64,000 nucleotides of DNA from Bacteroidota bacterium (GTDB taxonomy: Bacteria > Bacteroidota > Bacteroidia > Bacteroidales > NBLH01). How positions within the stretch are numbered: position 1 is the stretch's first letter; every line of letters starts with the position of its first letter. The translations under genes were made by a program, and so were the position numbers. Positions 31,251 through 51,862 of this stretch are shown here, piece after piece. The notes below the pieces were generated by a model, which had not been told where the DNA came from, did no database searches, and saw only the letters and a program-made list of their open reading frames with translations. The stretch covers positions 1 to 64,000 of the forward strand of contig JANYKN010000134.1 in assembly GCA_025361565.1 (NCBI GenBank). The letters are read 5' to 3'.

Positions 31251-31793
31251 ATGGACCAAAGCTTAAAAAGAATACAAACTGGTGATTTAAAAGAATTTGA
31301 AAGATTATTTAAAGAATTATATGCTCCACTTTGTTCTTATGCAAGCAAGATTTTGGGTGATAACGATAAAGCCGAAGAAATTGTTCAGGATATTTTTTAT
31401 GGAATTTGGAAAAATAAGGAAAAACTGGAGATTAAAGTTTCTTTTAAATCCTATTTATACAAATCTGTTCAAAATAATTGTATGCAAGTGATTCAACATC
31501 ATTATGTTGAAGATAAATATAAGCAGCATGTAGTCAATAATGTGGTTGAATTTCAGATGGATCCAATACAAGAAATGGAATTGGCCGAAATGAACCATGT
31601 AATTGAACAAACACTTGAATCATTACCAGAAAAGTGCAAAGAAATATTTAGTATGAGCAGGTTTGATGGCTTGAAATACAAAGAAATTGCTCTAAAACTC
31701 AATATATCCATAAAAACAGTTGAAGCAAACATGGGAAAGGCTCTGAATGCTTTCAGACAGAATTTAAAACAATATGTTGGTGCAAATGTTTAA
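31251..31793 (+). CDS. ECF sigma factor, FecI-like
   Basis: A 180-residue sigma-70 family ECF protein with region 2 (about 10-75: YASKILGDNDKAEEIVQDIF and KSYLYKSVQNN) and region 4 (about 120-172: SLPEKCKEIFSMSRFDGLKY then the HTH EIALKLNISIKTVEANMGKA). Length and motifs match the FecI-like Bacteroidota group that pairs with FecR. The anti-sigma gene begins 19 bp downstream, so the pair is co-transcribed. It would direct RNA polymerase to a small set of surface-protein genes on an outside signal. Candidate targets are the two carboxypeptidase-regulatory proteins flanking it. Confidence 0.93.
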   Translation: MDQSLKRIQTGDLKEFERLFKELYAPLCSYASKILGDNDKAEEIVQDIFYGIWKNKEKLEIKVSFKSYLYKSVQNNCMQVIQHHYVEDKYKQHVVNNVVEFQMDPIQEMELAEMNHVIEQTLESLPEKCKEIFSMSRFDGLKYKEIALKLNISIKTVEANMGKALNAFRQNLKQYVGANV

Positions 31794-31812
31794 CAAATAA
31801 AATATCGTACAA

Positions 31813-32832
31813 ATGGTATTTAATGAACTAAATAAAGCCGATTGGGAGCAAATAGCCAAATATTTATCTGGTGAAATGGATCTAAACGAAATTGAATTTT
31901 TTGAAAAAAGAATCAATTTTTCTGAAGAAAATAAGGCTTTTGTTAATCAGGTGAAAAAAGAATGGGAAAACATGAAGAATTTTAAGAAAAAGGAGGATAC
32001 ATTTGATACAAATAAGGCTTGGGGAAACCTTTATACCAAATTTGAACAAGATGGTCTTATTGAAACAAAGGAATCTGCGCATGTTATAAATCTAAAGCAA
32101 ATTATTAAAATTGCTGCCATCTTTATTCTTGGTGTGGCATTCAGTTCTTTAGTCTATTATATGGTTTCAGATACTAAACAAGCAAACATATTGATTGCAG
32201 ATACCTACAATACTAAAGGAATCAAAGAAGTAAAGCTTTCTGACGGATCAGTTGTTTATTTAAACGCCGATTCAAAATTATATTATCCCAAAAAATTTAG
32301 TACAGATACACGGACTGTTGAATTTGAAGGCGATGCTTTTTTTGATATTGCTAAAAATCCATCTAAACCTTTTATAATAAAAGCTAATAAGGCTGAAATC
32401 AAAGTATTGGGTACATCTTTCAATATTAAAACAAATATTGATAAAGATGAGGTAGAAGTACTGGTTGCCACAGGTAAAGTTATGCTCAGTAAAAGCAATA
32501 TAGAAAGTAAAGCTATATTTATTGAGCCCGGATATATGGGAAAGTTACAAAAGGATAAACTTTCGAAACAAATTAATTCTGATGTAAATTATATGGCTTG
32601 GAAAACAAAATTTTTTGACTTTGAAAATGGAATTAAATTAGGTAAAGCAATTGAAGTGTTAAACAGAGCATATCACGTAAATATTCAGTTTACGGATGTT
32701 TCAATTTCTGAAAAAGAGCTACACACTACTTTTAATAATGTTCCATTTGACACAATTCTTCAAATAATTTGCGATGCAACTAATCTTAAATATAAAAGGG
32801 AAGAAAGTGGAATTAACCTAACTAGGCAATAG
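31813..32832 (+). CDS. FecR-family anti-sigma factor
   Basis: A 339-residue protein with a cytoplasmic N-terminal sigma-binding part (1-90), one membrane helix (about 97-116, IAAIFILGVAFSSLVYYMV), a periplasmic FecR domain (about 130-230, KEVKLSDGSVVYLNADSKL, FEGDAFFDIAKN, FIIKANKAEIKVLGTSFNIK) and a C-terminal DUF4974/STN-contacting domain (about 265-335). It holds or activates the preceding sigma factor depending on the signal from its outer-membrane partner. The partner expected next is a TonB receptor with an STN domain; here the next gene (90 bp on) has the STN domain but no receptor barrel. Confidence 0.92.
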   Translation: MVFNELNKADWEQIAKYLSGEMDLNEIEFFEKRINFSEENKAFVNQVKKEWENMKNFKKKEDTFDTNKAWGNLYTKFEQDGLIETKESAHVINLKQIIKIAAIFILGVAFSSLVYYMVSDTKQANILIADTYNTKGIKEVKLSDGSVVYLNADSKLYYPKKFSTDTRTVEFEGDAFFDIAKNPSKPFIIKANKAEIKVLGTSFNIKTNIDKDEVEVLVATGKVMLSKSNIESKAIFIEPGYMGKLQKDKLSKQINSDVNYMAWKTKFFDFENGIKLGKAIEVLNRAYHVNIQFTDVSISEKELHTTFNNVPFDTILQIICDATNLKYKREESGINLTRQ

Positions 32833-32922
32833 AGAGATAATCTTTTTTGTCATTTAATTTTTATCACATCAAAAGCCGGATTTTAAAAGAAATGATTTTG
32901 AATATTTGAAAAAACATAAAAT

Positions 32923-34452
32923 ATGTCTTTGAAGAGTAATATTATATGGAGTAGTATTTTTATCATTAATTTTATTCTTCAACCAGCAATTGATGCACAG
33001 GATAGTCTTTTAAGTAAACCTGTTACTGCCCGATTTAAGAATACTTCTGTTAAACAAGCCTTTAAAAAAATTGAAGAGCAATTAAATTGTTACTTTACAT
33101 TTGAAGGTTCAACTATAAACCCGGATAAGATAATAAATCAGTCCTTCAGATCAATACCCCTAAAGAACTGTTTAGATAATATGCTTGAAGATTCAAGCCT
33201 GGTATATAAAATTATTGGTAATCATATTATTATAAAAAAAAGTAGGGTCGAAAGCCAAAAAGTTATTGTTGCCGATTCAATTCCCCAACTGATTATTCTT
33301 AAAGGTAAAATTATTGATAATCAGGGAGATGGCCCATTGCCATTTGCTACCGTGGGTCTATTAGGTTTTTCTTTAGGAGCAATAAGTAATGCCCAGGGGG
33401 AATTCATACTAAAAGTACCCGTGCAAATGATTGATGAACACATTGTTATTTCGCAACTTGGCTATAAAAATTTGGTTATACCTATTAATCAACTAGTTGA
33501 TACTTTCAGGATTTTTCAACTTGAAAGAAGTTATATTTCGATACAGGAAGTTATTATTAGAAAAGTTGATGCCAAATCGCTAATTAGAAATGCTTTAAGC
33601 AAAATAGAAAAAAATTACCCTACAAAACCAGCTTTTCTCACTGGTTTTTATCGCGAGTATGTTAAACGAAGGGATAATTATATGTTTTATTCCGAGGCGG
33701 TAGTTAAAATATATAAGCCATCCTATTCCAAGCGGTTGGAATGCGATTTGATAAAAGTGCTAAAATCAAGGAAAATACAGGATGTAAGGCAGGAAGATAC
33801 AGTTATATTGAAATTGAAATCGGGTCTAAGTAATTGCTTGGATTTAGATTTAGTCAAAAACCCGATTAATTTCCTCAGCGAAGAAAACTTTGACTTGTAC
33901 AATTACGTGATGTCGGATATTGTAACTTTCAATGACAGGAATGCTTATTTAATTGAATTTGAGCAAAAAAGTTCTGTTGATGAAGGTCTATATCAGGGGA
34001 AAATATATATTGATGTTGAGAAAATGGCCATTATTGGAGTCGATTTTCGGATTAATCCAAAAAAAATCAATAATGCACAGTCAAACTATGTTGTTAAAAA
34101 AAATAGAGGGATTAAAGTTCACATGTCCAATATTGATTACATGGTAACTTATCGATTGGTAAATGACAAGTATTATTTAAATTACGTAAAAGGATATTTG
34201 AAAATGAAAGTTAGGAAGAGTGGTAAAATTTTCCCAATAGATTTTGAAACATCTTTAGAAATGGCCGTTAATGACATCGATACTGTTAATGTTGAGCGAT
34301 TTAAACGCAATGAAATCGGAAATCCACACAACATTTTCTTTGATGAAATTCATGAATATGATGAAGATTTTTGGGAAAATTATAATTTTATGAAACCTGA
34401 TGAACCATTGCAAGAATCTATTAGAAAGCTCTCCTTTAAAACTAAAAAATAA
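32923..34452 (+). CDS. STN plus carboxypeptidase-regulatory domain protein without TonB barrel
   Basis: A 509-residue exported protein. Signal peptide (about 1-26, ending IDAQ), an STN (secretin/TonB short N-terminal) domain (about 35-105, VTARFKNTSVKQAFKKIEEQ), a CarboxypepD_reg-like domain (about 125-205, ISNAQGEFILKV, ISQLGYKNLVI) and a C-terminal domain of about 300 residues (DAKSLIRNALSKIEKNYP...FWENYNFMKPDEPLQES) homologous to that of the 29826 product. There is no plug or beta-barrel, so it is about half the size of a SusC-type receptor. It is the third gene of the sigma/FecR operon and the likely signal partner of FecR in the periplasm. Confidence 0.8.
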   Translation: MSLKSNIIWSSIFIINFILQPAIDAQDSLLSKPVTARFKNTSVKQAFKKIEEQLNCYFTFEGSTINPDKIINQSFRSIPLKNCLDNMLEDSSLVYKIIGNHIIIKKSRVESQKVIVADSIPQLIILKGKIIDNQGDGPLPFATVGLLGFSLGAISNAQGEFILKVPVQMIDEHIVISQLGYKNLVIPINQLVDTFRIFQLERSYISIQEVIIRKVDAKSLIRNALSKIEKNYPTKPAFLTGFYREYVKRRDNYMFYSEAVVKIYKPSYSKRLECDLIKVLKSRKIQDVRQEDTVILKLKSGLSNCLDLDLVKNPINFLSEENFDLYNYVMSDIVTFNDRNAYLIEFEQKSSVDEGLYQGKIYIDVEKMAIIGVDFRINPKKINNAQSNYVVKKNRGIKVHMSNIDYMVTYRLVNDKYYLNYVKGYLKMKVRKSGKIFPIDFETSLEMAVNDIDTVNVERFKRNEIGNPHNIFFDEIHEYDEDFWENYNFMKPDEPLQESIRKLSFKTKK

Positions 34453-36094: not shown

Positions 36095-37891
36095 ATGAAA
36101 CAGTTATTTGTAAAATTCCTTTATTCAGCTATGCTGATGTTGTTTACCCTTGGACTTTTTAGTCAGACAGTTGATCCTAACGAGCCATTATTTGAAGTAA
36201 AAAATGAACTTGGTCAAACGGTATTTGCAGTTTATCCTAGTGGTGTGAAAATTTTTATTGATGATCAATTTAAAGCCACGGGAGGTGGTTTTACTGTTGG
36301 TCGGTTAGGAACCGGTAAAGCCACTGCTGAGGATTATTTTTTGGTTAATCCCGGAGATGTAAGAGTTAATATCTCACAAAGTACAGATAAAGCAACTGGA
36401 GGTGGGTTTACAGTTGGTCGATTAGGAACTGGAAAATCAACTGCCGAAGATTTTTTACAGGTTGGTCCGGGAAATGTTCGGGTAAATATTTCCGACACTC
36501 CATTAAAAGGCACTGGAGGAGGTTTTACTGTTGGCAGACTTGGAACCGGTAAAGCAGCTGGTGACGATGTTGAATTTTTAAGTGTTACCCCCGATAGTAC
36601 TAGGATTTCAATGAGTGAACTAGGAGCAACAAGCAACAACGGCGGTTTTGCAATTAATAAATTGGGAGCTTCCAGGGCCGAAGATGAAAAGTTTTTTAAA
36701 TTGAACGACAACAACATCTCACTTGGACACAATAGTGGAAATGCTATTACAACGGGTTTGTACAATGCATTTCTTGGATATGAAAGTGGCGAATACAATA
36801 CAACCGGCGAAAGCAATACATTTGTTGGCTATAACAGCGGTAATTTAAATTTGAGTGGAAGTAAAAATGTTTTTGTAGGTGAAAAGGCAGGTTATTCAAA
36901 TATAAGCGGGCAACTGAATACTTTTTTAGGTACACTTTCAGGATATGCTAACACAGAATCGGACTATAGTACATATGTTGGGTATGAAGCCGGTAAAAAT
37001 TCTATCACTGGATTTAATACATGTGTTGGATATGCAAGTGGTACTTTGGGGGCTAGTGGTACACATCGCGCTTTCCTTGGATATGGAGCAGGTAATAACA
37101 GTTCAGGTGACGACAATACTTATGTTGGTGCCGAAGCTGGATTTTTTAGCGATTTGGGTACTCAGAACCTTTATCTTGGAAGCGGAGCTGGTAAATCGGC
37201 AAGCGGTTCAGGAAATGTTTTAATAGGTTTTAATGCAGGTTTGAACCTTGAAGGTTCAAATCGACTATACATTGAGAATACTTCCAGCGACAAACCATTA
37301 ATTTATGGTGAATTCGACAATGATATTTTGGAATTCAACGGTAAAGTTGGTGTAGGAAGAATTCCATCGACCAATCACTTTGAAGTTGAAGGTTTTGCAT
37401 CAAAAACTGTTGCAGGTAGTTGGGTGGCTAATTCTGACAGAAGAATCAAAACAGATATTACCGACATTACCAATGCATCTGATATAATTATGAGTTTGCG
37501 ACCTGTAAAATTCAAATATACAGAAGAATGGAAAAAAAGACATCCTTCCATCAAAGATCAGTTTTATTATAACTATATAGCCCAGGAATATCAAAAAGTT
37601 TTTCCGGAATCTGTAAAAGGCAGTGGTGAATATTTAGAGAATGATAAAAATGAAATTCTGCAAATTGACACTTATAATGCTCAGATAGTTTCAATTAAAG
37701 CCATCCAGGAACTTATTTCGCAAAATAATAAGCAACAAATGGAAATTGAAAGCCTGAAAGCGCAGGTTAATCAATTAACCGGAGTAAATCAAGCTTTAAA
37801 TGATAAACAACAAACGATTGAAGCTAAAATTGATGGAATGAATGATCAAATAGATCAACTTAAATCCATGATGCATCAATCTGGAAAGTAA
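36095..37891 (+). CDS. Repeat-rich surface fibre protein with peptidase S74 chaperone domain (copy A)
   Basis: A 598-residue exported protein. After the signal peptide (about 1-24) comes a conserved head FEVKNELGQTVFAVYPSGVK, then three copies of a module of about 35 residues starting TGGGFTVGRLGTGKA, then about ten 17-residue repeats of the pattern G-Y-x-[ST]-G-x-x-N-x-[ST]-G-x-x-N-x-F-[VL] (DNA 36725-37225), and a C-terminal peptidase S74 (intramolecular chaperone of endosialidase) domain with SDRRIKTDI and YIAQEYQKVFPE. It ends in a coiled coil rich in Gln and Leu. Such proteins probably trimerise into beta-roll fibres. It lacks a T9SS sorting signal. Two paralogues follow. Confidence 0.8.
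   Translation: MKQLFVKFLYSAMLMLFTLGLFSQTVDPNEPLFEVKNELGQTVFAVYPSGVKIFIDDQFKATGGGFTVGRLGTGKATAEDYFLVNPGDVRVNISQSTDKATGGGFTVGRLGTGKSTAEDFLQVGPGNVRVNISDTPLKGTGGGFTVGRLGTGKAAGDDVEFLSVTPDSTRISMSELGATSNNGGFAINKLGASRAEDEKFFKLNDNNISLGHNSGNAITTGLYNAFLGYESGEYNTTGESNTFVGYNSGNLNLSGSKNVFVGEKAGYSNISGQLNTFLGTLSGYANTESDYSTYVGYEAGKNSITGFNTCVGYASGTLGASGTHRAFLGYGAGNNSSGDDNTYVGAEAGFFSDLGTQNLYLGSGAGKSASGSGNVLIGFNAGLNLEGSNRLYIENTSSDKPLIYGEFDNDILEFNGKVGVGRIPSTNHFEVEGFASKTVAGSWVANSDRRIKTDITDITNASDIIMSLRPVKFKYTEEWKKRHPSIKDQFYYNYIAQEYQKVFPESVKGSGEYLENDKNEILQIDTYNAQIVSIKAIQELISQNNKQQMEIESLKAQVNQLTGVNQALNDKQQTIEAKIDGMNDQIDQLKSMMHQSGK
36279..36625 (+). repeat. Three tandem TGGGFTVGRLGTGK modules
   Basis: Three units of roughly 110 bp each encode TGGGFTVGRLGTGK followed by a variable Asp-rich turn and a PGDVRVNIS-type strand. 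The second and third fibre genes hold two such units each. Confidence 0.7.
36725..37225 (+). repeat. 17-residue (51-bp) repeat array, copy A
   Basis: Ten consecutive units; seven have exactly 17 residues and three have 16. Each starts with Gly and ends with a hydrophobic pair before the next Gly. Confidence 0.75.
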
Positions 37892-38056
37892 AATTACTGC
37901 TATTCCAAAATTAGCGAATCTTTTAATTTGAGAATATCAAGATAGAATTATATGGATAAAAATTCCTTATCTATTCAGCTAAATGGAATAAAACTTTATA
38001 TAGTTTGCCAATAGATGGGTTTATACCATCATTGAAAACAACTTTAAAATTTATGT

Positions 38057-39145
38057 ATGAAAAGTCAGATATTAAAAATAAATAGAATAGGTTTTCTGAT
38101 AGTTAACCTATTAATATGCTATAATCTTGCTATATCTCAGGTTGTTAATATTAAAAATGGGGTTGTAGTGAAATTATCAAAAGCTGGAGCTCTGAGTTTT
38201 TCAAATGGCACAAGCTTTTCGATCAATTCAGCAAAATGTGTATTTGACGGGACTATTGTTTTTACTGGAACACAGGACCAAAATATTGGTGGTACCCAGA
38301 ATATTAAATTTGCTAATCTTTCAATCAACAATTCAAGCTTGGTAACTTTGTTACATGATGTTGAAATACGTAATAAACTGAGTTTAAACAGTGGAGTTCT
38401 TAATTTATTGGACAACAATCTTTTGATTAAAGGAAATGCGGTAATCGATGGTACTTTTTCTCAAACCTCAATGATTGCTGCCGATTCAAAAGGGAGATTA
38501 TACAAAGAGCTTATTGGGGTTGGATCTTACTACTTTCCAGTTGGTGATTTAACTGATTTGCCGGATTTTTCTCCAGTTACACTTGAATTTAAAACAGGGA
38601 AATTTTCAAGAGCAATTGTATCTGTTAATTTAAAAAATTCTAAACACCCATTAAACACAAGTACTTCAAATTATCTTAAGAGATACTGGTCGATAAGGCA
38701 AAGTGGGATTTTAGGGTTTACTTGTGATGCAAAACTTACGTATGTTAATTCGGATATTTTCGGAAATGAATCCAATATCAATGGAGCCATTTGGAATGGT
38801 AGCCAATGGGTTCAACTTAATCCGGCTTCGGGTAATCAAATAACCGGAAAATTGAGCCTTTTATCCGATGTAACCGGAATTCAGAAATATTCAACCACTG
38901 CAAGTACTTTAAAATCAGCTCAACTTGACATTGTGGTTACTGAAAATGGTATTTCATTAATTACCCAAGATTATGTACAGTTGCAGAAAATTGAAATATA
39001 TAATAAAGCTGGGCAGTTGGTATATTCTAAAAGATTGGAATCGGAAGAAAATCCTGAATTGGGATTGGATTTGGTTGCAGATCTTTATCTGATAAAAATC
39101 ATGACAAATCAAAGTATCATTACTAAAAAAGTCTTTTTGCCATAA
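38057..39145 (+). CDS. T9SS-sorted surface protein, partner of fibre cluster (copy 1)
   Basis: A 362-residue exported protein (signal peptide about 1-27). Residues about 30-285 are beta-rich with repeated Asn/Ser turns and a conserved YYFPVGDL...FSPVTLEF stretch. The last 75 residues form a type IX secretion C-terminal sorting domain: VQLQKIEIYNKAGQLVYSK, a Leu/Asp strand, DLYLIKIMTNQ and the closing basic KKVFLP. It should cross the outer membrane by T9SS and be attached to the surface or released. A clear paralogue lies at 43636; each follows one or two fibre genes, suggesting they work together. Confidence 0.8.
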   Translation: MKSQILKINRIGFLIVNLLICYNLAISQVVNIKNGVVVKLSKAGALSFSNGTSFSINSAKCVFDGTIVFTGTQDQNIGGTQNIKFANLSINNSSLVTLLHDVEIRNKLSLNSGVLNLLDNNLLIKGNAVIDGTFSQTSMIAADSKGRLYKELIGVGSYYFPVGDLTDLPDFSPVTLEFKTGKFSRAIVSVNLKNSKHPLNTSTSNYLKRYWSIRQSGILGFTCDAKLTYVNSDIFGNESNINGAIWNGSQWVQLNPASGNQITGKLSLLSDVTGIQKYSTTASTLKSAQLDIVVTENGISLITQDYVQLQKIEIYNKAGQLVYSKRLESEENPELGLDLVADLYLIKIMTNQSIITKKVFLP

Positions 39146-39554
39146 TTTGTCAGTTTAATTTGTTTGCTTATAAACAACAATAAATAGTATATGACATAAG
39201 GGAATTTTATATACGAAATATAAATTACCTGATATACAATTAATCCAATGGGAAACTCATGTTCGTATGATTTTCCCAATTGGATTTTAAATTAGTATAA
39301 GGTTGATTGACACATTTATTTAATATATTAAATCATCATTTGAACAATCCTGATGTTTACTTAAAATAGGATTTTGAATCAATATTATTTTACAGTAATT
39401 CACTGATTTATTGATATTTGTTGTTTTTTAAATAAACATTTGTTTACATTTAATTTTTAAGATGTGCTAATTAGGTTTAAAACCAGTGAACATAGAAATA
39501 ATTAAATTAATCGTTTTTATTTAATGCTTATTCGTTATTCAAAAACTTAGACCC
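39146..39554. other. Gene-free interval before fibre gene B, 409 bp
   Basis: It contains the hairpin at 39242-39288 and is otherwise AT-rich without a visible gene or full promoter match. Confidence 0.4.
39242..39288 (+). terminator. Likely intrinsic terminator after the first fibre unit
   Basis: AATCCAATGGGAAA pairs with TTTCCCAATTGGATT with one bulged base, followed by TT. The loop is about 16 bases, so it is weaker than a classic terminator. Confidence 0.5.
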
Positions 39555-41567
39555 ATGAAAAAAATCTCTATTTTATTCATTTCCTTCTTCTCTTTTTGTA
39601 TGATAAGTTTACCCTTAATTGGACAATCGGAGAAAACCAAAGTAAAAGCATCAGATCCCAATATTCCAATTTTTGAAATAAAAAATGATGCTGGGCAAAC
39701 TGTTTTTGCAGTTTACCCAACTGGAGTAAAAATATTCATTGATACCCAATTAAAATCAACTGGTGGCGGATTTACTGTAGGCAGATTAGGTACGGGAAAA
39801 GCAACCGCTGATGATTTTTTTATTGTAAACCCTGGAGATGTCCGTATCAATATTTCAAGTCCTTTGAAAGCAACCGGAGGTGGTTTTACAGTAGGTCGTT
39901 TAGGAACGGGTAAAGCACCTGGAGATGTGAATTTTCTATCAGTTACCCCTGATAGTACCCGTGTAAATATAAGTGAAACCAGCACAGGAGGCTTTGCTGT
40001 TGGAAAATTAGGAGTTTCAGGAGTTGATAATTTTTTAAACCTTACACCAGACAATTACTTTATTGGTCATCAGAGTGGAGAAAGTGTTAAGGGTGGTTTT
40101 CATAACTGCACATTAGGATATCAAAGTGGGTATGACTTAAATGATGGAAGTTTTAATTTGTTTATTGGCTATCAGAGTGGTTATCTCACCCATTCCGGGA
40201 ATGGAAATTTATTTTTAGGTTATCAGACAGGATACAATAATACTTCGGGTGATTATAATTCTTTTGTTGGTTATAGAGCAGGTTTAAGCAATTCTTCCGG
40301 CTTATTTAATACATTTATTGGCAGCAATAGTGGATATTCAAATTCCATAGGCAATAATAATTCTTTCTTTGGTTATAATTCGGGTTATTCAAACCAAAGT
40401 GGTGTAAATAATACTTTTATTGGCACTGAAACCGGTTATAAAAACCTGAATGGCACTTCAAATGTTTTTATTGGAAATAAAGCTGCCTATAATAACACAT
40501 CCGGAAATAAAAATATTTTTATCGGCGATAGTACAGGTATGCTCAACAATTCTGGTGATTACAATATTTTGTTGGGTTATAAAAGTGGCTATTCTATCAG
40601 TGGAGGAAAATCTAATGTATTATTAGGCAGTTCTGCAGGGATGAAACTTACAAATGCAATGGAGAATGTATTTATTGGTACTGATGCTGGGTATTCAAAT
40701 CAGGGTTATAATTTTAATGTTTATATTGGAAATGCTACAGGCTATAACAACAATGGCGGAAATAATGTATTCATAGGCCGACGGACAGGATTTGCATCTG
40801 CATCTTCAAACAATAATGTATTTGTTGGAATAGGGGCTGGAGGTTCAACAGTTAGCGGAAGTAATAATGTTTGTATTGGTGCTGTTGCTGCCGGAAATGG
40901 GTTGTTAGGCAATCAAAATGTCATTATAGGAGATTTTGCAGGTTCATATGCTATAGGTGATTCGTCAGTTTTGATTGGGCACATGGCTGGATACAGTCTT
41001 GCAAAATCACAGAGACTCGTTATTGAGAATTCTGAGGACCTAACAAATCCTTTAATTTATGGAGAATTCGACAACCACAGAGTAGTAATAAATGGGAATG
41101 GTTCCAACGGATCTACCACTTTTTTCGTAAATGGGACTGCTGGAGGCACAAATTCGTGGACAGTGGTTAGTGATATGAGACTTAAAACCAATATCCTTAC
41201 CATTCCTGGTGCATTAGATAAAGTATTAAGTTTAAGAGGCGTCAATTTTAATTGGATAGATTCAAAAGCAATTGATAACAAGTTGCATATGGGATTTATA
41301 GCTCAGGAAGTTGAGAAAATTATTCCTGAAGTTGTTGATAAAACCAACGATAAATATTCTATGGAATATGCACCAATCACTGCCTTATTAGTTGAAGCAA
41401 TGAAAGAACAGCAAAAACAAATTGAAGATTTAAAGAAAACAAATGAAATTCTAAGCATTCAGGTTAATAAAATTAGTCAATTGGAATCTGAGATTAATGA
41501 ATTAAAAATACTTGTTACAAAAATGGCAAAAGATACTAAAGCTGAAGATTCAAAAACAATTGAATAG
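39555..41567 (+). CDS. Repeat-rich surface fibre protein with peptidase S74 chaperone domain (copy B)
   Basis: A 670-residue paralogue of the 36095 product: signal peptide (about 1-24), the head FEIKNDAGQTVFAVYPTGVK, two TGGGFTVGRLGTGKA modules, a linker SVTPDSTRVNIS, then 18 full repeats (DNA 40065-40976), sixteen of exactly 17 residues and two of 16, such as GYQSGYLTHSGNGNLFL. The S74 domain follows (SDMRLKTNI, FIAQEVEKIIPE) and then a coiled coil (MKEQQKQIEDLKKTNEIL). The S74 domain may cleave itself off after trimer folding. Length variation relative to copy A comes from the repeat number. Confidence 0.82.
   Translation: MKKISILFISFFSFCMISLPLIGQSEKTKVKASDPNIPIFEIKNDAGQTVFAVYPTGVKIFIDTQLKSTGGGFTVGRLGTGKATADDFFIVNPGDVRINISSPLKATGGGFTVGRLGTGKAPGDVNFLSVTPDSTRVNISETSTGGFAVGKLGVSGVDNFLNLTPDNYFIGHQSGESVKGGFHNCTLGYQSGYDLNDGSFNLFIGYQSGYLTHSGNGNLFLGYQTGYNNTSGDYNSFVGYRAGLSNSSGLFNTFIGSNSGYSNSIGNNNSFFGYNSGYSNQSGVNNTFIGTETGYKNLNGTSNVFIGNKAAYNNTSGNKNIFIGDSTGMLNNSGDYNILLGYKSGYSISGGKSNVLLGSSAGMKLTNAMENVFIGTDAGYSNQGYNFNVYIGNATGYNNNGGNNVFIGRRTGFASASSNNNVFVGIGAGGSTVSGSNNVCIGAVAAGNGLLGNQNVIIGDFAGSYAIGDSSVLIGHMAGYSLAKSQRLVIENSEDLTNPLIYGEFDNHRVVINGNGSNGSTTFFVNGTAGGTNSWTVVSDMRLKTNILTIPGALDKVLSLRGVNFNWIDSKAIDNKLHMGFIAQEVEKIIPEVVDKTNDKYSMEYAPITALLVEAMKEQQKQIEDLKKTNEILSIQVNKISQLESEINELKILVTKMAKDTKAEDSKTIE
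40065..40976 (+). repeat. 17-residue (51-bp) repeat array, copy B
   Basis: Eighteen units; the first thirteen are all exactly 17 residues. The consensus is G-[YNST]-x-[STA]-G-Y-x-N-x-S-G-x-x-N-x-F-[IL]. DNA identity between units is low, so they are old. Confidence 0.8.
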
Positions 41568-41733
41568 ATTCATTTCACTGGATTCTATCACTGTTTTAAG
41601 TTAATGTTTAAAGCAGGATTTTCATCTTTAAAATAGAAAATGAAAATAGTATCAATTCATTGGTGACTGATTATCGATTGATTTTATAGGATAAGATTTT
41701 TTTAAAATTATTTCTAATACTAATATCATTATT

Positions 41734-42705
41734 ATGAAAAATTTGATTTTTAGAATGGCATTCTTAATTTTTCTTATTCAGAGTGTTACGGTTTTTGCAC
41801 AAGAAAATGTCATTAAAGCGACAAAGTCTGACCCCAATGTTCCAATTTTTGAAATAAAGAATGATCTTGGACAAACTGTTTTTGCTGTATATCCAACTGG
41901 TGTAAAAATATTCATTGATCAACAATTAAAAACCACCGGAGGTGGATTTACTGTTGGTAGACTCGGAACTGGTAAAGCTGTGGGTGATGATTTTTTAGTT
42001 GTAAACCCGGGTGACGTAAGGATTAATATTTCAAGCCCATTGAAGACTACAGGAGGAGGATTTACTGTTGGCCGTTTAGGAACTGGAAAATCGACAGGTG
42101 TCGATAATTTTTTGAGTATTACTCCCGATAGTTCCAGAATATACGTAAATGAAACAAGTTCTGATGGTTTTGCTGTTGGTAAACTAGGTGCACCGGGAGT
42201 TTCAGGTGATAACTTTCTTGACTTAACACCTAACAATTATTTCATTGGACATCAATCCGGAGCAAAAACAGTAAATGGATTATATAACAATTTTATTGGA
42301 TATCAATCAGGTATGGAGAATACAGATGGTGCTAATAATACTTTTTTGGGATACAAAGCCGGGCAGCAAAACACAACCGGCCATGAGAACTTTTTTGGAG
42401 GTTATGAAGCCGGATTAAATAACACAACTGGTTTTTATAATGTTTTAATAGGTTACCGGGCAGGTTACAATAACAACAGTGCAGCCAATATTTTCATTGG
42501 TAAAGAATCAGGTTTTAATACAGTTGATGGTTGGTCAAATGTATTTATAGGAGATCAAAGTGGTTATAATAATATTGGTGGTGGTGGAATCTACGGCGCA
42601 TTAAATGTTTTTGTTGGCCGTTCAGCGGGATATGCAAATACTACTGGAGGTAATAATATATATTGGAGGATTCGCTGGAAGTGCACTGACTACCGGAATG
42701 AATAA
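41734..42705 (+). CDS. Fibre protein copy C, 5' part of a frameshifted gene
   Basis: The first 310 codons match copy B closely: signal peptide ending TVFAQ, head FEIKNDLGQTVFAVYPTGVK, two TGGGFTVGRLGTGK modules and eight repeats from 42247. At an (AT)4 run (42656-42663) the frame is lost: the reading changes from GRSAGYANTTGGNNIY to WRIRWKCTDYRNE and stops at 42705. In the +1 frame the next residue is Ile, which completes an exact 17-residue repeat, and the protein continues to 43603. So this is one gene with a 1-base gain or 2-base loss. As it stands it would give a truncated protein without the S74 domain. Confidence 0.8.
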   Translation: MKNLIFRMAFLIFLIQSVTVFAQENVIKATKSDPNVPIFEIKNDLGQTVFAVYPTGVKIFIDQQLKTTGGGFTVGRLGTGKAVGDDFLVVNPGDVRINISSPLKTTGGGFTVGRLGTGKSTGVDNFLSITPDSSRIYVNETSSDGFAVGKLGAPGVSGDNFLDLTPNNYFIGHQSGAKTVNGLYNNFIGYQSGMENTDGANNTFLGYKAGQQNTTGHENFFGGYEAGLNNTTGFYNVLIGYRAGYNNNSAANIFIGKESGFNTVDGWSNVFIGDQSGYNNIGGGGIYGALNVFVGRSAGYANTTGGNNIYWRIRWKCTDYRNE

Positions 42706-42933
42706 TGTAGCTTTGGGAAATACTACCGCAAGTAACTCAACATCAGGTGATAATAATGTATATATTGGAAATAGATCAGCCTATTCTAATAATGGTAGTT
42801 CAAATGTGGTAATTGGTAATATATCTGGAGCTAATGGTGAAATGTATGATACTCATTCAACTTATACAAACAGTGTCCTGATTGGTGATGGTGCCGGTTA
42901 TAATAATGTTTCAGGAATAGGAAATGTTTTTCT
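42247..42933 (+). repeat. 17-residue (51-bp) repeat array, copy C, with frameshift inside
   Basis: About thirteen units; most have 16-17 residues, two are longer by 5-6 residues. The frameshift lies in the last codon of unit eight. Confidence 0.7.
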
Positions 42934-43603
42934 GGGTTACAGGGCAGGATATAATGAAACCGGTTCGAATAAACTTTATATTGCCAATTCAAATACATCA
43001 ACACCTCTTATTTACGGAGATTTTAATTCTAAATATTTAAAATTTAATGCCAATGTTGGAATAAATTACCCAGTAAGTGATTTTTTTGGGCTAACAATTG
43101 GCCTTGATGCAAATGATACTTATGGACTAGTTGTTTATGGTCCAACATATTGTTCTTCTGGTGCATGGGCAGCATCTGATTTTCGATTTAAAAAAAATAT
43201 TGTTACGCTAAAAAGTGCATTAGATAAAATTCTCCAATTACGAGGTGTTTCTTTTGAATGGAAAACAGAAGAATTTCCTAATAAAGGTTTTACACATGGC
43301 GAAAATATTGGTTTAATTGCCCAGGAAGTTGAGAAAATAATACCTGAATTAGTTAAGGATGGGCCAGAAGGTTACAAATCAATCGCTTATGATAAACTTA
43401 CTGCTTTTTTAATTGAAGGAATGAAAGAACAGCAATCTCAAATAGAGTCCGGTAAATCTGAAAATGCCAAATTGACTTATAGAGTTCAGGAATTGGAATC
43501 AAAAAATACTGAATTGTCCACCGAAATTTCAAAACTAAATGAAATGAAAAGTGAAATTGAAGAGCTTAAGACTTTAGTCAATGAACTTAAGAGTAAGAAT
43601 TAG
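42605..43603 (+). CDS. Fibre protein copy C, 3' part of a frameshifted gene (repeats and S74 domain)
   Basis: Meaningful coding starts near 42662 (IGGFAGSALTTGMNNVAL) in the +1 frame relative to the 5' part; the ATG at 42605 lies in the overlap and gives non-homologous residues first. It holds about five more repeats, the S74 chaperone domain (SDFRFKKNI, LIAQEVEKIIPELV) and a coiled coil (MKEQQSQIESGKSENAKL). Without the 5' part it lacks a signal peptide, so it would not be exported. Joined, the gene would make about 623 residues, similar to copies A (598) and B (670). Confidence 0.75.
   Translation: MFLLAVQRDMQILLEVIIYIGGFAGSALTTGMNNVALGNTTASNSTSGDNNVYIGNRSAYSNNGSSNVVIGNISGANGEMYDTHSTYTNSVLIGDGAGYNNVSGIGNVFLGYRAGYNETGSNKLYIANSNTSTPLIYGDFNSKYLKFNANVGINYPVSDFFGLTIGLDANDTYGLVVYGPTYCSSGAWAASDFRFKKNIVTLKSALDKILQLRGVSFEWKTEEFPNKGFTHGENIGLIAQEVEKIIPELVKDGPEGYKSIAYDKLTAFLIEGMKEQQSQIESGKSENAKLTYRVQELESKNTELSTEISKLNEMKSEIEELKTLVNELKSKN
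42656..42663 (+). repeat. (AT)4 run at the frameshift point of fibre gene C
   Basis: ATATATAT lies exactly where the frame changes. Adding one AT unit would restore N-N-I-Y-I-G-G and the full frame. Short dinucleotide runs are prone to slippage, but four units is a short tract. Confidence 0.7.
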
Positions 43604-43635
43604 TTTCTTTTGAATATACTAATAATCTGAACGAT

Positions 43636-44709
43636 ATGAATATACTCAATAAAATATTAATTGCATGTTGCTTTTTAATAGCTTCTCTATCATTAAAAAG
43701 CCAGGAGGTAATTATTAGCAACAATGCTACTATAAATGCACTTCCCGGAACCTCTATCATACTTGCCAATGGAATGAATTTGGTGAATCATTCTGTATCT
43801 GGAATTTTGAGCGGAACATTTATTTTCCAGGGTACCTTACCTCAAAATATTTCAGGTGATTACCCTGTTGAATTTACAAATTTAACAGTAGAGCAAGGTG
43901 GTTTGGTCAGTTTATTGAACGATGTTAAAGTAAATACTGCCTTAAACTTAACCAATGGATTTGTTGATCTTTTAAATAATAATTTAACGCTTCTTTCGAG
44001 TGCTACATTGAATGGCTCATTTTCAGAAACTGACATGATTGTTGCAGAAGGTAGCGGAAAATTGGGTTATGAAATAACCGGAAATGGTAGTTATCTTTTT
44101 CCAATTGGTGATACTTCAGCTGTTGATGAATATTCTCCAGTCTCACTTGTCTTTAATTCAGGTACTTATACCAACGCGGTTATATCAGCAAATCTAAAAA
44201 ATCAAAAACATCCACAGAATTCAAGTACAACAGATTATCTTAAAAGGTATTGGACTATTTCACAAACGGGTATCACTGGATTTGCTTGCGATGTTAATTT
44301 TACATATACAAATGCTGATATTCAAGGAAGTGAATCAAATATTTATGGAGCAAAATGGAATGGATCATTTTGGACTCCTTTAAATAAAGCTTCAATGAAC
44401 AGCATTTCCGGAAATGTCATTGATTTTTCAGACTTCACTGGTGGTGAGCTGTCTGTTGTAGGAAGTAAGGAATTAATTCAAGATAATGTTGAAATAATAA
44501 GCAATGGTAATCTGATAATTATAAAATCTAAAGATAGTTTTAAATTGAAAAGTGCAGAAGTCTATAATAAATTAGGTCAAAAAGTATATGTTAAAGATCT
44601 AAGTAAATCAAATTATAATGAAATTGATTTAGGCAAGGTCCGTGATATTTATTTAGTTAGGATTTTGTCAGATAATCAGTCCTTTACAAAGAAAGTTCTA
44701 GTTGATTAA
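43636..44709 (+). CDS. T9SS-sorted surface protein, partner of fibre cluster (copy 2)
   Basis: A 357-residue paralogue of the 38057 product over its whole length (FDGTIVFTGTQDQNI there, LSGTFIFQGTLPQNI here; YFPVGD/LFPIGD; STTDYLKRYWTISQTGITGF). It has a signal peptide (about 1-22) and a T9SS C-terminal sorting domain (KLKSAEVYNKLGQKVYVKDL...IYLVRILSDNQSFTKKVLVD). It starts 33 bp after the fibre C gene, so both should be on one transcript, ended by the terminator at 44735. A surface partner, cap or anchor of the fibres is a reasonable guess but not shown. Confidence 0.8.
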   Translation: MNILNKILIACCFLIASLSLKSQEVIISNNATINALPGTSIILANGMNLVNHSVSGILSGTFIFQGTLPQNISGDYPVEFTNLTVEQGGLVSLLNDVKVNTALNLTNGFVDLLNNNLTLLSSATLNGSFSETDMIVAEGSGKLGYEITGNGSYLFPIGDTSAVDEYSPVSLVFNSGTYTNAVISANLKNQKHPQNSSTTDYLKRYWTISQTGITGFACDVNFTYTNADIQGSESNIYGAKWNGSFWTPLNKASMNSISGNVIDFSDFTGGELSVVGSKELIQDNVEIISNGNLIIIKSKDSFKLKSAEVYNKLGQKVYVKDLSKSNYNEIDLGKVRDIYLVRILSDNQSFTKKVLVD

Positions 44710-44850: not shown

Positions 44851-47800
44851 ATGTTACTGAAAATTAACTTGTTGAGAAAATCTGAACAGCAATTGAAAGG
44901 AATTAAAATATTATGTTTTCTTTTATTTTCGCTTTTCTCGTTGCATATTCATAGTCAGGTTAATCAAAATGGTGTTCCATTAATTAAAAACTATTCTCCC
45001 GAAGATTATAAAGCAAGTAGTCAAAATTGGTCTATTGTAAAAGATCGAAGAGGCCTAATGTATTTTGCCAATAATTTTGGCTTGTTACAATACGATGGGT
45101 CAAAATGGAAACTATATGAAAATAAGCGAAGTTCTGAATTGCGTTCATTGGCAGTGGACGATTATGGTACAATTTATTATGGATCGGCCCAGGATTTCGG
45201 TTTTATGGTGCCAAATTCCAAAGGCAATTTGGAATATAAATCTATCTACAAAATTTATAATTCGGGAGATCCTGATTTCAATTTAATTTGGAATATTAAA
45301 ACTATTGGGGATTTTGCTTTTTTTCAAAGTAATGAAAAAATATTCAGGGTAAAAATACCTCTTAATATTTTAAAATCTGATGATATAAAAAAGGCAATAA
45401 CTGTCTTTCAACCAGAGAAAGCTTTTCACTGGTCTTTTAGTGTTTACAACAAGTTTTACGTTCGTGAATATGAAAAAGGTTTATTGGTACTCGACAGTGA
45501 TAAATTAAAGTTGGTCCCTGGAGGCGAAATTTTTGCAAATGAAAAGGTTTATGTGATGTTGCCTTACGAAAATAACAAAATCCTGATTTGTTCAAGGGAA
45601 GGTGGATTATATATTTTTGATCCACAGGCAACTACAAAAGCTATAAAAAAACTTGACTGCAATGCAAATAGTTTGTTGATTGAAAGTATGATTTATGGAG
45701 GAGAGGCATTGCCAAATTATAGATATGCAATTTCGACCCTTACCAATGGTGTTGTTATTATTGATAAAAGTGGGAATATAGTTGAGCATCTTAATGTTAA
45801 AAGTGGATTACCCGATCAACAAATTACCTCTATTTATGCTGATAATAATTTGGGTAATCTTTGGTTCGCCTCAAATGAAAATGGAATTTTTAATGTAAAT
45901 ATAGGTAGCCCGTTTAGGGAATGGAACAGAACAAGTGGCCTTTTAGGAGTTGTTTCGGATATTATCAGGTTTAAGAACAAAATTTATGTGACAACAAATA
46001 GTGGTGTTTATTATTTGGACGAATTAAAACCGGATTTTCCCGAATTTAAACAAATTGCTGAAATTCCTTATGAATCATGGGATTTGCAATGCTTTAAAGC
46101 AACACATGCTAAAGATGATAAGCTTCTTGTAGGTACTGCAGGTGGAATTTTTGAAATTAAAGATAACAAGGCTAAAAGTGTCATTAATAATGGCATTGTT
46201 CATCAACTTTCCCAATCAACTATTAATCCTGACAGGGTATTTGTAGGCTACGAGAATGGCTTAGGCTGTCTTGAATTCAAAAATAAATCTAGAAAATGGG
46301 ATTTTCTTGGAAAAAATGACTCAATTAAACGTAATATACTTAGTATTTACGAAAAGCCTGATGGAAATTTATATCTTGGAACTGGCGGTTCAGGTGTTAT
46401 ACTTTTAAAAGAATTTTTCGACAAAAAACCTTTTATTATTGATAGCGCCAGAGGATTGCCCTTGTATGGACCGGAATTCAAAGTTTATCAAATTAAAAAT
46501 GACATTGTTTTTGCATCTCAAAAGGGATTATTTTTATTTAAAGAAAAAGAACGAAGAGCAGTACCTTATTTAAAATTTGGAAACGAATTTTCAGGCAGAG
46601 ACATTGGTGTATCCGGAATTTTGGAAGTGGGAAATGAATACTGGCTTAGTACATATACAAATAGTCTCAAAAAAGGCAATATTAAGTACGATTTAGTCAA
46701 ATTGAAAGAAGATGGGAATAAATATGATAAAGAGGAAGGATTTGCTAAAATAATCCCTCAAAAACTGCCACTGGCTTTATACAACGACAACAATTTTATA
46801 TGGGTTGCAAACGAAAAGGGTTTGTATAAATTTGATAAAACAACCACTAAGGATTACAGAAAATCATTCAATGTCAATATTTTAAAGGTTTCAACTGACG
46901 AGGATTCTGTAATTTTTGAAGGCACATTTTACGAATATAAAGATAGTGTTGCCTATATTTCTTTGAATCAATCGGAACAGTTAAAACCAATATTGAGTTA
47001 TGAGCACAACCAAATTGTTTTTGAATGTTCAGCAATGTTCTACGAACAGGAAAATAATACAGAATACAGTTATCGATTAATAGGACAAAATAATAAATGG
47101 TCAAATTGGACGAATGAATCGAAATTTACATATACCAATTTATCTCCAACAAGTTATCGTTTTGAAATTAAAGCAAAAAATATTTATGGAACTATAAGTA
47201 ATATAAATAGTTATGAATTTACGGTTTTACCACCGTGGTATAGAACGCTATTGGCATATATTATTTTCTTTTGTGTTGCAGTGGCTTTGGTGTGGTTAAT
47301 CGTAAAATTGAATATACGCAGATTGGAGCTTGATAAAATTAAACTGGAGGGAATAATTGACGAAAGAACTGCTGAAATAAGGTTAAAAAATGTGGTTCTA
47401 GAGCAACAGAAGGAAGAAATTACCACCCAAAGGGATGAGATTGAAATTCAGAAAGATAAAGTAACACTTCAAAAAGACCAGATAGAAGAACAGAAAAAGA
47501 ATATCACAGACAGTATATTGTATGCCAGTAAGATACAAGTGGCATTACTGCCACCTGAGCCTATTCTGGACGAATTATTGCCTGAACATTTTATTTTCTG
47601 GAAGCCAAGGGATATTGTTAGTGGCGATTTTTACTGGACAACCAAAAAAAATAATAAAACCATACTTGTGGCAGCAGATTGCACAGGGCATGGAGTTCCG
47701 GGGGCTTTTATGAGTATGCTTGGTATTTCATATTTAAATGAAATCATGAATAAATTTGAAGATATCCGTGCAGGCCAGATTTTGGATGAATTAAAAGCAA

Positions 47801-48273
47801 GTGTAAAAACCGCCTTAAGGCAAACCGGCAAAGACCATGAGACCAAAGATGGTATGGATATGGCATTGTGCATCCTTGATTTTGAAAATATGCAAATGGA
47901 ATATGCCGGTGCTTATAATTCTTTATTGCTAATCAGGGGAAATGAGGTTATCAAATATGATGCAGATAGAATGCCAATAGGTATTTACGTAAAAGAGCGC
48001 GATAACTTTAAAAATCATGTGATTGAAATGAAAAAGGGCGATAATTTTTATATCCATTCTGATGGTTATGTTGATCAGTTTGGAGGTGAAAATGGGAATA
48101 AGCTAATGACAAGAAGATTTAAGGAACTTCTGCTCGAAAATCATACAAAGCCCTCAAAAGAACAAAAAATTGCTCTTGAAGAATTCCTGATGGAGTGGAC
48201 CTCTTACAAAAATGAAAATGGTGAAACCTACAAGCAGCTTGATGATATATTGGTAATTGGAATCAAAATTTAG
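44851..48273 (+). CDS. Reg_prop/Y_Y_Y sensor with SpoIIE-type phosphatase output
   Basis: A 1140-residue membrane protein. After a signal/anchor (about 12-35) come two seven-bladed-type Reg_prop propellers (about 40-690), a Y_Y_Y beta domain (about 710-795, YSYRLIGQNNKWSNW, FTYTNLSPTSYRFEIKAKN), one membrane helix (about 798-820), a coiled coil rich in Gln/Glu/Lys (about 828-890) and a SpoIIE/RsbU PP2C phosphatase (about 900-1140) with the metal site GDFYWTT near residue 925, AADCTGHGVPGAFMSMLG and DGYVDQFGG. The sensor half is that of Bacteroidota hybrid two-component systems; the output is a Ser/Thr phosphatase, which normally acts on an anti-sigma-antagonist. No such partner is in the window. 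Confidence 0.88.
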   Translation: MLLKINLLRKSEQQLKGIKILCFLLFSLFSLHIHSQVNQNGVPLIKNYSPEDYKASSQNWSIVKDRRGLMYFANNFGLLQYDGSKWKLYENKRSSELRSLAVDDYGTIYYGSAQDFGFMVPNSKGNLEYKSIYKIYNSGDPDFNLIWNIKTIGDFAFFQSNEKIFRVKIPLNILKSDDIKKAITVFQPEKAFHWSFSVYNKFYVREYEKGLLVLDSDKLKLVPGGEIFANEKVYVMLPYENNKILICSREGGLYIFDPQATTKAIKKLDCNANSLLIESMIYGGEALPNYRYAISTLTNGVVIIDKSGNIVEHLNVKSGLPDQQITSIYADNNLGNLWFASNENGIFNVNIGSPFREWNRTSGLLGVVSDIIRFKNKIYVTTNSGVYYLDELKPDFPEFKQIAEIPYESWDLQCFKATHAKDDKLLVGTAGGIFEIKDNKAKSVINNGIVHQLSQSTINPDRVFVGYENGLGCLEFKNKSRKWDFLGKNDSIKRNILSIYEKPDGNLYLGTGGSGVILLKEFFDKKPFIIDSARGLPLYGPEFKVYQIKNDIVFASQKGLFLFKEKERRAVPYLKFGNEFSGRDIGVSGILEVGNEYWLSTYTNSLKKGNIKYDLVKLKEDGNKYDKEEGFAKIIPQKLPLALYNDNNFIWVANEKGLYKFDKTTTKDYRKSFNVNILKVSTDEDSVIFEGTFYEYKDSVAYISLNQSEQLKPILSYEHNQIVFECSAMFYEQENNTEYSYRLIGQNNKWSNWTNESKFTYTNLSPTSYRFEIKAKNIYGTISNINSYEFTVLPPWYRTLLAYIIFFCVAVALVWLIVKLNIRRLELDKIKLEGIIDERTAEIRLKNVVLEQQKEEITTQRDEIEIQKDKVTLQKDQIEEQKKNITDSILYASKIQVALLPPEPILDELLPEHFIFWKPRDIVSGDFYWTTKKNNKTILVAADCTGHGVPGAFMSMLGISYLNEIMNKFEDIRAGQILDELKASVKTALRQTGKDHETKDGMDMALCILDFENMQMEYAGAYNSLLLIRGNEVIKYDADRMPIGIYVKERDNFKNHVIEMKKGDNFYIHSDGYVDQFGGENGNKLMTRRFKELLLENHTKPSKEQKIALEEFLMEWTSYKNENGETYKQLDDILVIGIKI

Positions 48274-51285: not shown

Positions 51286-51491
51286 TTATTTCATTTTTAA
51301 GGATTGTTGCATTGAAATAGAAAAATGAATAGTTTGGTTTATGGGTTGTTTGAAAGAGCAATTACCGATTATAACGGGTAATATTTATTTGATAAACTTT
51401 TCCAATAAATTAGCAAGATTGAATTTAATAATCAGGATGGAAGAATTCAATCTTAATATCAATAATTCAAGTGAGATAAAAATATTGTTTT

Positions 51492-51696
51492 TCACTACTG
51501 ACCGACAAAAAATAGTATTTTGGGCTAAAGCCCAATGCCATCGTGATTTTAATAGCCCCTGGCTTAAGCCAGGGGTAATTTATAAAATAGTACGAATTGG
51601 GCTTTAGCCCAAATATTAATTGATTGATAACTAATGTTCTAAAAGATGTTTTTTGATATTTTAATTCTGACTTTATAATTTATCGGTCAGTAGTGA
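51492..51696. mobile_element. MITE/REP-like nested palindromic element
   Basis: Outer 14-bp inverted repeats TCACTACTGACCGA (51492-51505) and TCGGTCAGTAGTGA (51683-51696) enclose a second 18-bp pair, TTTGGGCTAAAGCCCAAT (from 51519) and its exact complement (51596-51613), which in turn encloses a perfect 20-bp palindrome around CCCCTGGCTTAAGCCAGGGG (51556-51575). GGGCTAAAGCCC words are typical of REP-like repeats in this phylum. No transposase lies within the 205 bp. Confidence 0.65.
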
Positions 51697-51762
51697 TTGT
51701 TTTTAATAAATGTAGTTATTAATTGAAATATTTAATTGATTCAATTTTGTATTTATTAAAAG

Positions 51763-51788
51763 GCTCACAGGCACAATTGCCTGTGAGC
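51763..51788 (-). terminator. Intrinsic terminator after the SusD gene
   Basis: GCTCACAGGCA and TGCCTGTGAGC form a perfect 11-bp stem with loop CAAT; on the minus strand CCTTTTAATA follows. It lies about 75 bp beyond the SusD stop codon. Confidence 0.75.
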
Positions 51789-51862
51789 ATTAGTAATTAA
51801 AATATTAATAGATAACTCAATTTTCTATTTGAAATTTAGCGAAGCTAATAGTACTCTAAAAA

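Follow-up and report, generated by a model that had tools for sequence, protein, structure and literature searches.

Phage-like S74 fibre genes encoded beside type IX-sorted proteins and a predicted sensor in a Bacteroidota genome: a candidate anchored adhesin

Introduction

Do phage-like surface fibres and the sorted proteins encoded next to them form one appendage, or do their genes share no more than a neighbourhood? This question was raised by a gene cluster in a stretch of 64,000 nucleotides, hereafter the window, from a Bacteroidota bacterium of the order Bacteroidales (assembly GCA_025361565.1, contig JANYKN010000134.1, positions 1 to 64,000). The host genome comprises 6.76 Mb in 199 contigs. 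In an initial annotation, three fibre genes with an S74 domain were described as alternating with two genes for proteins sorted by the type IX secretion system (T9SS), and a joint appendage was suggested. Our analysis indicated that the set belongs with the phage-like adhesive fibres of bacteria, here joined by a secreted partner and a predicted sensor, and that its nearest relatives are the MAT fibres of Bdellovibrio. With a probability of about one half, we read the cluster as an S74-assembled trimeric adhesin whose base is docked on a T9SS-sorted anchor and which has its own sensor. No description of a pairing between S74 fibres and T9SS-sorted proteins was found in the one open-access library searched, and one may exist elsewhere.

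Results

Layout of the cluster

Five genes were located between 36095 and 44709, all on the plus strand, in the order fibre A, sorted protein S1, fibre B, fibre C and sorted protein S2. The order and coordinates agreed with those first proposed. A sixth gene, REG, adjoined S2 on its 3' side at 44851-48273 and encoded Reg_prop, Y_Y_Y and SpoIIE domains in one chain. The five-gene extent was correct as far as it went, and REG had been left out of it. We moved the end of the cluster to 48273 because S2 is followed by REG, and its counterparts in other genomes by REG-type genes. The intergenic gaps along the cluster were 165, 409, 166, 32 and 141 bases. All six matches to fibre B in the window genome fell within the cluster (E ≤ 0.001). 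Open reading frames (ORFs) were called mechanically, with a minimum of 80 residues and with overlaps removed. The features were as follows.

36095..37891, plus strand: fibre A, 598 residues; signal peptide (by eye), head modules, 16/17-residue repeats, S74, coiled coil
38057..39145, plus strand: sorted protein S1, 362 residues; SORT domain and T9SS type A tail
39555..41567, plus strand: fibre B, 670 residues; head, about 19 repeats, S74 (S539/D540/K544 as SDxxxK), coiled coil
39645..40049, plus strand: fibre B head, residues 31-165; its counterparts elsewhere co-vary with the sorted partner
40050..41030, plus strand: shaft of fibre B, built of 17-residue repeats; AlphaFold2 monomer with one strand per 16-17 residues
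41130..41474, plus strand: S74 intramolecular chaperone/protease region of fibre B; Pfam S74
41734..42705, plus strand: fibre C, first part (head and repeats); ended by a frameshift
42605..43603, plus strand: remainder of fibre C with repeats, S74 and coiled coil, read in the next frame
43636..44709, plus strand: sorted protein S2, 357 residues; SORT domain and T9SS type A tail
44851..48273, plus strand: REG, 1140 residues; Reg_prop propeller, Y_Y_Y and SpoIIE-type phosphatase domain

Each fibre had a signal-peptide-like start, judged by eye, followed by a head with the motif 'QTVFAVY', a repeat shaft, S74 and a coiled coil. The head carried TGGGFTVGRLGTGK modules ('GGFTVGRL'), three in fibre A and two each in fibres B and C. 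Pfam S74 was matched at 54.9 bits in fibre A, 67.6 bits in fibre B and 64.4 bits in the second part of fibre C (cut-off 22), and an SDxxxK motif was present at the start of S74 in all three. The common head, the repeated modules and the S74 ends of the initial annotation were therefore confirmed. As for its three fibres, A and B were whole. Fibre C was divided between two frames by a break near 42,660, so that S74 was found only in the second frame. The frameshift sat in an AT-rich run near 42,660, where the frames overlap (42605-42705), and fibre genes of three other loci (L092, L139 and L144) were split too. The break may be true switching, decay or an assembly error.

Co-occurrence of fibre, SORT and REG genes in other genomes

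Co-occurrence was followed in related genomes. Among 99 relatives, fibre B matched 39 genomes and S2 matched 19 (E ≤ 1e-10). A SORT profile made from eight proteins, for which only the four best first-look candidates per genome were scored, gave matches at E ≤ 1e-15 in 139 of the 393 genomes of the order. Of the 27 SORT places that ranked best, two were in the window and 25 elsewhere. Five of them were not judged, four having a contig edge upstream and one (in G022) lying inside a large protein. A fibre was found directly upstream on the same strand at 17 of the 22 judged places, three more had small ORFs in between (L202, L203 and L204), and two had no fibre. With 20 of 22 places showing a fibre upstream, this preset check placed the predicted co-occurrence far beyond chance. 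Within the 27 places, the genes outside the profile seed gave a similar picture, with a fibre upstream in 14 of 16. In a selection of 22 lower-ranking SORT regions (L214-L217 and L219-L236), a fibre adjoined one (L228, downstream).

The conserved order continued downstream of SORT. A neighbour was visible at 17 of the 27 places, namely REG in 10, a fibre in three (L069, L070 and S1 of the window), another T9SS-tailed gene in two and an opposite-strand gene in two. Complete fibre-SORT-REG triples were present in eight genomes with six family codes (G000, G041, G049, G218, G252, G282, G286 and G348). REG was partly seen, running off the stretch, in L071, L208, L210 and L213.

The neighbourhood was also followed from the fibre side. 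The head was confirmed at 120 places, and 78 loci were kept, all from metagenome genomes of Bacteroidota, a single one of these genomes being labelled Chlorobiota. Three loci were removed because they duplicate others (L089, L090 and L142, copies of L069, L070 and L073), as was L163, which overlaps L108; L093 is a copy of L088, and a recount without it shifts small totals only. T9SS tails were uncommon in these loci but enriched in the immediate same-strand neighbours of fibres, at 13 of 71 by our own tail model compared with 3 of 468 farther genes (13 of 70 and 3 of 465 without L163). These 13 neighbours were three SORT proteins, seven other proteins of 119-216 residues, two larger ones (460 and 875 residues) and one truncated. 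Because our tail model was seeded partly from partner genes, the result was checked with TIGR04183, which matched 13 of 68 such neighbours across the 78 head loci. For 140 random genes at least three genes off, TIGR04183 was not among the 25 listed families, which corresponds to at most two members.

REG-type genes of at least 250 residues were likewise concentrated beside fibre and SORT genes. They accounted for 15 of the 59 immediate neighbours on the same strand and 0 of the 38 on the opposite strand; five of the 15 had been used to seed the REG profile. At a distance of two to three genes they were 3 of 85 on the same strand and 0 of 64 on the opposite strand, and at four or more genes 0 of 200. 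REG is a profile label here: of the 18 genes so labelled, 11 had the SpoIIE motif, one was kinase-like and six were ambiguous, several being cut by the stretch end.

Such same-strand clusters with REG need co-regulation only. The fibre and the T9SS-sorted protein could be separate adhesins that share one operon-like cassette and one sensor and make no contact. SORT-like domains also occurred in very large frames of the window genome, up to 9211 residues long, and the stretches read around them contained no fibre, which indicates that SORT can function by itself. Two further observations bear on this explanation, the match between fibre type and partner family and the covariation of head and SORT.

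The fibre N-terminal type and the family of the T9SS partner

Three N-terminal fibre types were distinguished: fibres with a MAT-like domain, fibres with a 'PRM' domain, named after its sequence, and bare-head fibres, the type of the window's genus. The NCBIfam model Bdello_MAT_N (NF053851) matched all 40 sampled MAT-type Bacteroidota fibres (of 82) at E ≤ 1e-3; the one printed score was 44.8 bits, below the curated 60. It matched none of 28 PRM-type fibres, a 29th (L146) having been excluded since its PRM match was internal.

The type of the fibre predicts which T9SS family adjoins it, where a T9SS gene adjoins. Fibres adjoining SORT were 20 PRM, five bare-head, no MAT and eight untyped, whereas those adjoining another T9SS-tailed protein were 17 MAT, no PRM, no bare-head and two untyped. 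Two fibres (L108|1 and L228|4) were set aside, since L108|0 was labelled 'SORT' from a truncated tail and the label in L228 is weak, and 23 non-MAT against 0 MAT typed fibres then stood beside SORT. The sampling followed two routes, SORT loci being located mostly via SORT and MAT loci via the head. The 'bare-head' fibres of L092, L139 and L144 are frameshift-split MAT-type genes; they were relabelled for the S74 tree only, and in the partner counts they are bare-head fibres with no partner.

The second fibre class with its other T9SS partners had been missed in the initial annotation. A second, small T9SS-tailed protein was observed beside MAT-type fibres of Bacteroidota at L077:7347-7832 (minus strand), L079:3412-3912 (plus strand), L130, L108 and L094, with 'QGFQQ'-like stretches in several. 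The L077 protein scored 47.2 bits to PF18962. Separately, in L217, L220, L223 and L230 a PRM-domain protein with neither head nor S74 stood directly upstream of a lower-scoring SORT, and the PRM-SORT association may reach beyond fibres.

Covariation of the fibre head with SORT

Sequence distances were compared across 16 fibre-SORT pairs. SORT distance correlated with that of the whole head (r = 0.63) and of its first 55 residues (r = 0.67; both p = 0.0004). It was uncorrelated with PRM (r = 0.08) or S74 (r = 0.11). The species background was partialled out with rpoB distance in 14 of the 16 pairs, as G162 and G282 had no rpoB match. The correlation remained at r = 0.66 (p = 0.0002, n = 14) for the 55-residue head and 0.52 (p = 0.001) for the whole head, and it was not significant for PRM (0.28, p = 0.09, n = 12) or S74 (0.01, p = 0.46, n = 11). 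Leaving out the two pairs of the window's genus gave 0.65 (p = 0.0008) for the 55-residue head and 0.44 (p = 0.013) for the whole head. As judged from these sequence distances, the covariation of head and SORT exceeds species relatedness, and the S74 tip shows none.

The type-partner match and the head-SORT covariation count against separate adhesins, because co-regulation alone predicts neither. We regard that explanation as possible but somewhat unlikely.

Both observations could also arise from descent. If two cassette lineages were inherited vertically, the type-partner match would reflect one ancestor per cassette and the covariation would be residual ancestry. The genes are physically linked, most SORT loci come from one order, and SORT distance did follow rpoB distance, with r ranging from 0.38 to 0.52 when computed on the head and PRM sets and from 0.23 to 0.45 on the S74 sets, which were smaller. 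However, the head-SORT covariation stood with rpoB distance partialled out. In addition, on the chromosome S74 lies between head and SORT and is thus nearer SORT than the head is. Plain linkage would therefore favour covariation of S74, which is the opposite of what was observed.

The S74 tree bears on the same explanation. In a tree of 84 domains the MAT/non-MAT label changed 20 times, compared with a shuffled mean of 22.8 (44 of 500 shuffles as low). After the three split genes were relabelled, 17 changes were counted against a mean of 20.9 (8 of 300 as low), a weak clustering of the MAT label that cassette lineages would lead one to expect. The tips were still mixed between the classes, and the partner label of 32 fibres changed nine times against a mean of 10.3 (133 of 500 as low). 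The tree was poorly resolved (118 columns), with starred branches forcing at least seven changes before relabelling. It appears that S74 tips have passed from one class to the other, whereas the match of base and partner was kept. Vertical inheritance of two cassettes seems improbable to us as the full explanation.

Structure of the fibre shaft

The 17-residue period, initially called strict, did not hold as such. Repeat spacings in fibre A were 17 and 16. Among spacings of at most 20 in all collected fibre ORFs, duplicate loci included, 17 occurred 1389 times, 16 occurred 242 times and 18 occurred 13 times, with others in the tail. The 17-residue period is dominant, not strict.

The regular structure predicted for the shaft was recovered in fibre B. 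In an AlphaFold2 monomer model from 18 sequences (mean predicted local distance difference test (pLDDT) score 67), the shaft at residues 168-474 showed a short strand every 16-17 residues with pLDDT mostly 70-87, lower at its start and with a dip to 55 at residues 411-420. A PDB sequence search with fibre B gave three matches at E ≤ 1, the S74 proteins 6f45_A (E = 3e-4) and 7dc3_A (E = 0.44) and a third that looked like chance.

The shaft is not constant among homologues. In the fibre L073:8025-10754 (minus strand), YadA-like repeats replace the 17-residue ones between a like head and a SORT partner, so the shafts appear interchangeable. The 17-residue repeat is not specific to this system, as this fibre and the phage proteins with a similar shaft and tip indicate.

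The sorted proteins and the T9SS

S1 and S2 are paralogues with 42% identity over 335 residues. Their T9SS sorting, as first claimed, was supported by the type A tail model TIGR04183 at 24.2 bits (S1) and 24.5 bits (S2) against a cut-off of 23, and at 26.6 and 26.1 bits in the genome search. Pfam T9SS models, PF18962 included, scored below their cut-offs for S1 and S2. The S2 model, from six sequences, had a mean pLDDT of 83 and consisted of beta-rich stretches and the tail. Its C-terminal part resembled solved T9SS C-terminal domains, with a target TM-score of 0.77 to RemA (8gl6_D) and 0.60 to RgpB (7pq4), none at E ≤ 0.001. The PDB sequence search with S2 gave one match, at E = 0.4. SprA, the T9SS component searched for, scored 2676 bits in the window genome, and a type A tail was found at 71 places there, S1 and S2 included.

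SORT also stood at the beginning of large T9SS proteins adjoining fibres (1279-2648 residues in the stretches read). The constant part is therefore the SORT domain and not the whole protein. The SORT-like domains in very large frames of the window genome were located at G000:C71 near 79054 (L235, 9211 residues) and G000:C90 near 44217 (L236, 4228 residues), with no fibre in the stretch read.

The REG gene

REG is predicted to be a periplasmic propeller sensor with a cytoplasmic SpoIIE-type phosphatase. Three of four REG homologues scanned had SpoIIE, and the L073 homologue ended in HATPase_c instead. At 191 bits, below the curated cut-off of 700, the phosphatase part of REG matched SiaA, which NCBIfam labels a biofilm regulation phosphatase. 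The probable role of REG is to report on the appendage.

Flanking genes and signals

Upstream of the cluster, at 31251-34452, the window contained an ECF (extracytoplasmic function) sigma factor, a FecR-like anti-sigma factor and an STN/CarboxypepD_reg gene. Adjoining REG at 48343-53488 (minus strand) were a glycoside hydrolase of family GH92 with an F5/8 type C domain and a SusD-like protein. Promoter-like sites were not in excess (48 compared with 48.7 expected from shuffling). Terminator-like sites numbered 10 against a shuffled mean of 4.5, a result that was not used.

Discussion

Likeness to known systems

The closest system is that of the MAT fibres of Bdellovibrio bacteriovorus, which, according to the available part of PMC10769870, are exported and have a long shaft, with an S74 domain carrying SDxxxK in 13 of 21 MATs. 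The same part of that paper proposes that the MAT N-terminal domain is located at the cell surface and bound to a surface element awaiting identification. The window fibres share the long shaft and the S74 tip with SDxxxK, and we take them to function in a similar way. However, they differ in their head and in having a T9SS-sorted neighbour. The MAT N-terminal domain (NF053851) gave no match in fibre A, fibre B or either part of fibre C at E ≤ 1, and because it was sought and not found, these fibres were not classed as MAT members.

The repeat shaft and S74 tip also resemble phage tail fibres with an S74 chaperone (PHROGs 6002, 4636, 1980 and others). Shaft and tip matched phrog_6002 at 4.6e-33 and phrog_4636 at 4.8e-33, and 909 of 50,697 phage records matched fibre B. 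In addition, the S74 chaperone is named in a catalogue of injection-system fibres (PMC12923769, seen in part). The cluster could in principle be a decayed or domesticated phage tail gene set, or its fibres could belong to a phage, a tailocin or an extracellular contractile injection system particle. Unlike phage tail fibres, the window set has its own head, a signal peptide, a T9SS partner and a sensor. The fibres begin with a Sec-type signal peptide (by eye), a Pfam scan covering 18 window proteins gave no phage structural family above its cut-off, the head was confirmed in none of 58 candidate stretches of viral contigs, and no phage record covered 80% of fibre B; on these four grounds a phage remnant or injection-system fibre was rejected as very improbable.

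YadA-type trimeric autotransporters follow a head-stalk adhesin logic and end in a C-terminal barrel. The window fibres share the head-stalk logic, and their L073 homologue has YadA-like repeats. However, they lack the barrel, and Pfam YadA head or anchor models gave no match in fibres A, B and C at E ≤ 1. The window fibres are not YadA autotransporters.

With their type A tails, S1 and S2 are like T9SS type A cargo. For type B cargo with cognate PorP/SprF shuttles, pairs of partners with linked genes are described (accessible parts of PMC9143113 and PMC12618676). In contrast to those pairs, the linked partner here is a fibre with no T9SS tail and not a barrel shuttle. REG is like Reg_prop/Y_Y_Y sensors and the SiaA-type phosphatase in its domain content, and unlike them it is encoded beside fibre and SORT genes.

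A model for the appendage

The observations establish gene content, conserved order, the enrichment of T9SS and REG genes beside fibres, the type-partner match and the head-SORT covariation; trimer formation, autocleavage, physical binding, export route, adhesion and sensing are inferred. If the cluster encodes an anchored trimeric adhesin, its assembly might proceed as follows. Sec would export the fibre chains, and three chains would zip together with the aid of the C-terminal S74 chaperone. S74 would then cut itself off at the conserved serine and bare the tip. Such autocleavage is expected from the SDxxxK motif by analogy with Bd3182, for which it has been demonstrated (PMC10769870, available text). 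The N-terminal head of the fibre would dock on the SORT domain of the adjoining sorted protein. The T9SS would carry the sorted protein over the outer membrane, where the type A tail would fix it at the surface, and the protein fixed there would hold the fibre at its base. Anionic lipopolysaccharide is what anchors type A cargo (PMC9143113, part consulted), and by analogy S1 and S2 may be anchored in the same way. REG would sense the condition of the appendage, or its ligand, and tune expression or behaviour.

Several points weigh against this model. The fibres have no T9SS tail and no known route over the outer membrane, and hitch-hiking on the T9SS was not found in the literature searched, some of it available in part. 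The T9SS tails of S1 and S2 have marginal scores, barely above the cut-off. The head of fibre B, which would form the docking part, was poorly modelled (pLDDT < 50 over residues 62-163). In the window's genus, only two of six other genomes had both the fibre and the sorted protein, and four had neither. L200 and L211 are strong SORT places with no adjoining fibre. Most fibres had no T9SS gene within two genes; in a count that included contig edges, these were 84 MAT, 12 PRM, six bare-head and 19 untyped fibres. Many of them must therefore work with a partner encoded at another place in the genome, or with no partner at all. An obligatory pairing of fibre and T9SS gene was rejected on this majority.

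A wider version of the anchored-adhesin reading is tentative, and we consider it unlikely at present. In Bacteroidota, phage-like trimeric fibres with no T9SS signal of their own may have come to be displayed by way of the T9SS. Each N-terminal class would have its own T9SS-sorted carrier-anchor, and shafts and tips would be exchangeable as long as base and carrier match. If this is true, the finding would be a case of cargo-by-association for the type IX secretion system, and the carrier would be the kind of missing surface element left open by the MAT paper, as far as its available text goes (PMC10769870). For the question of how bacteria hold phage-like trimeric fibres on their surface, the locus offers candidate anchors for two fibre classes together with a candidate sensor.

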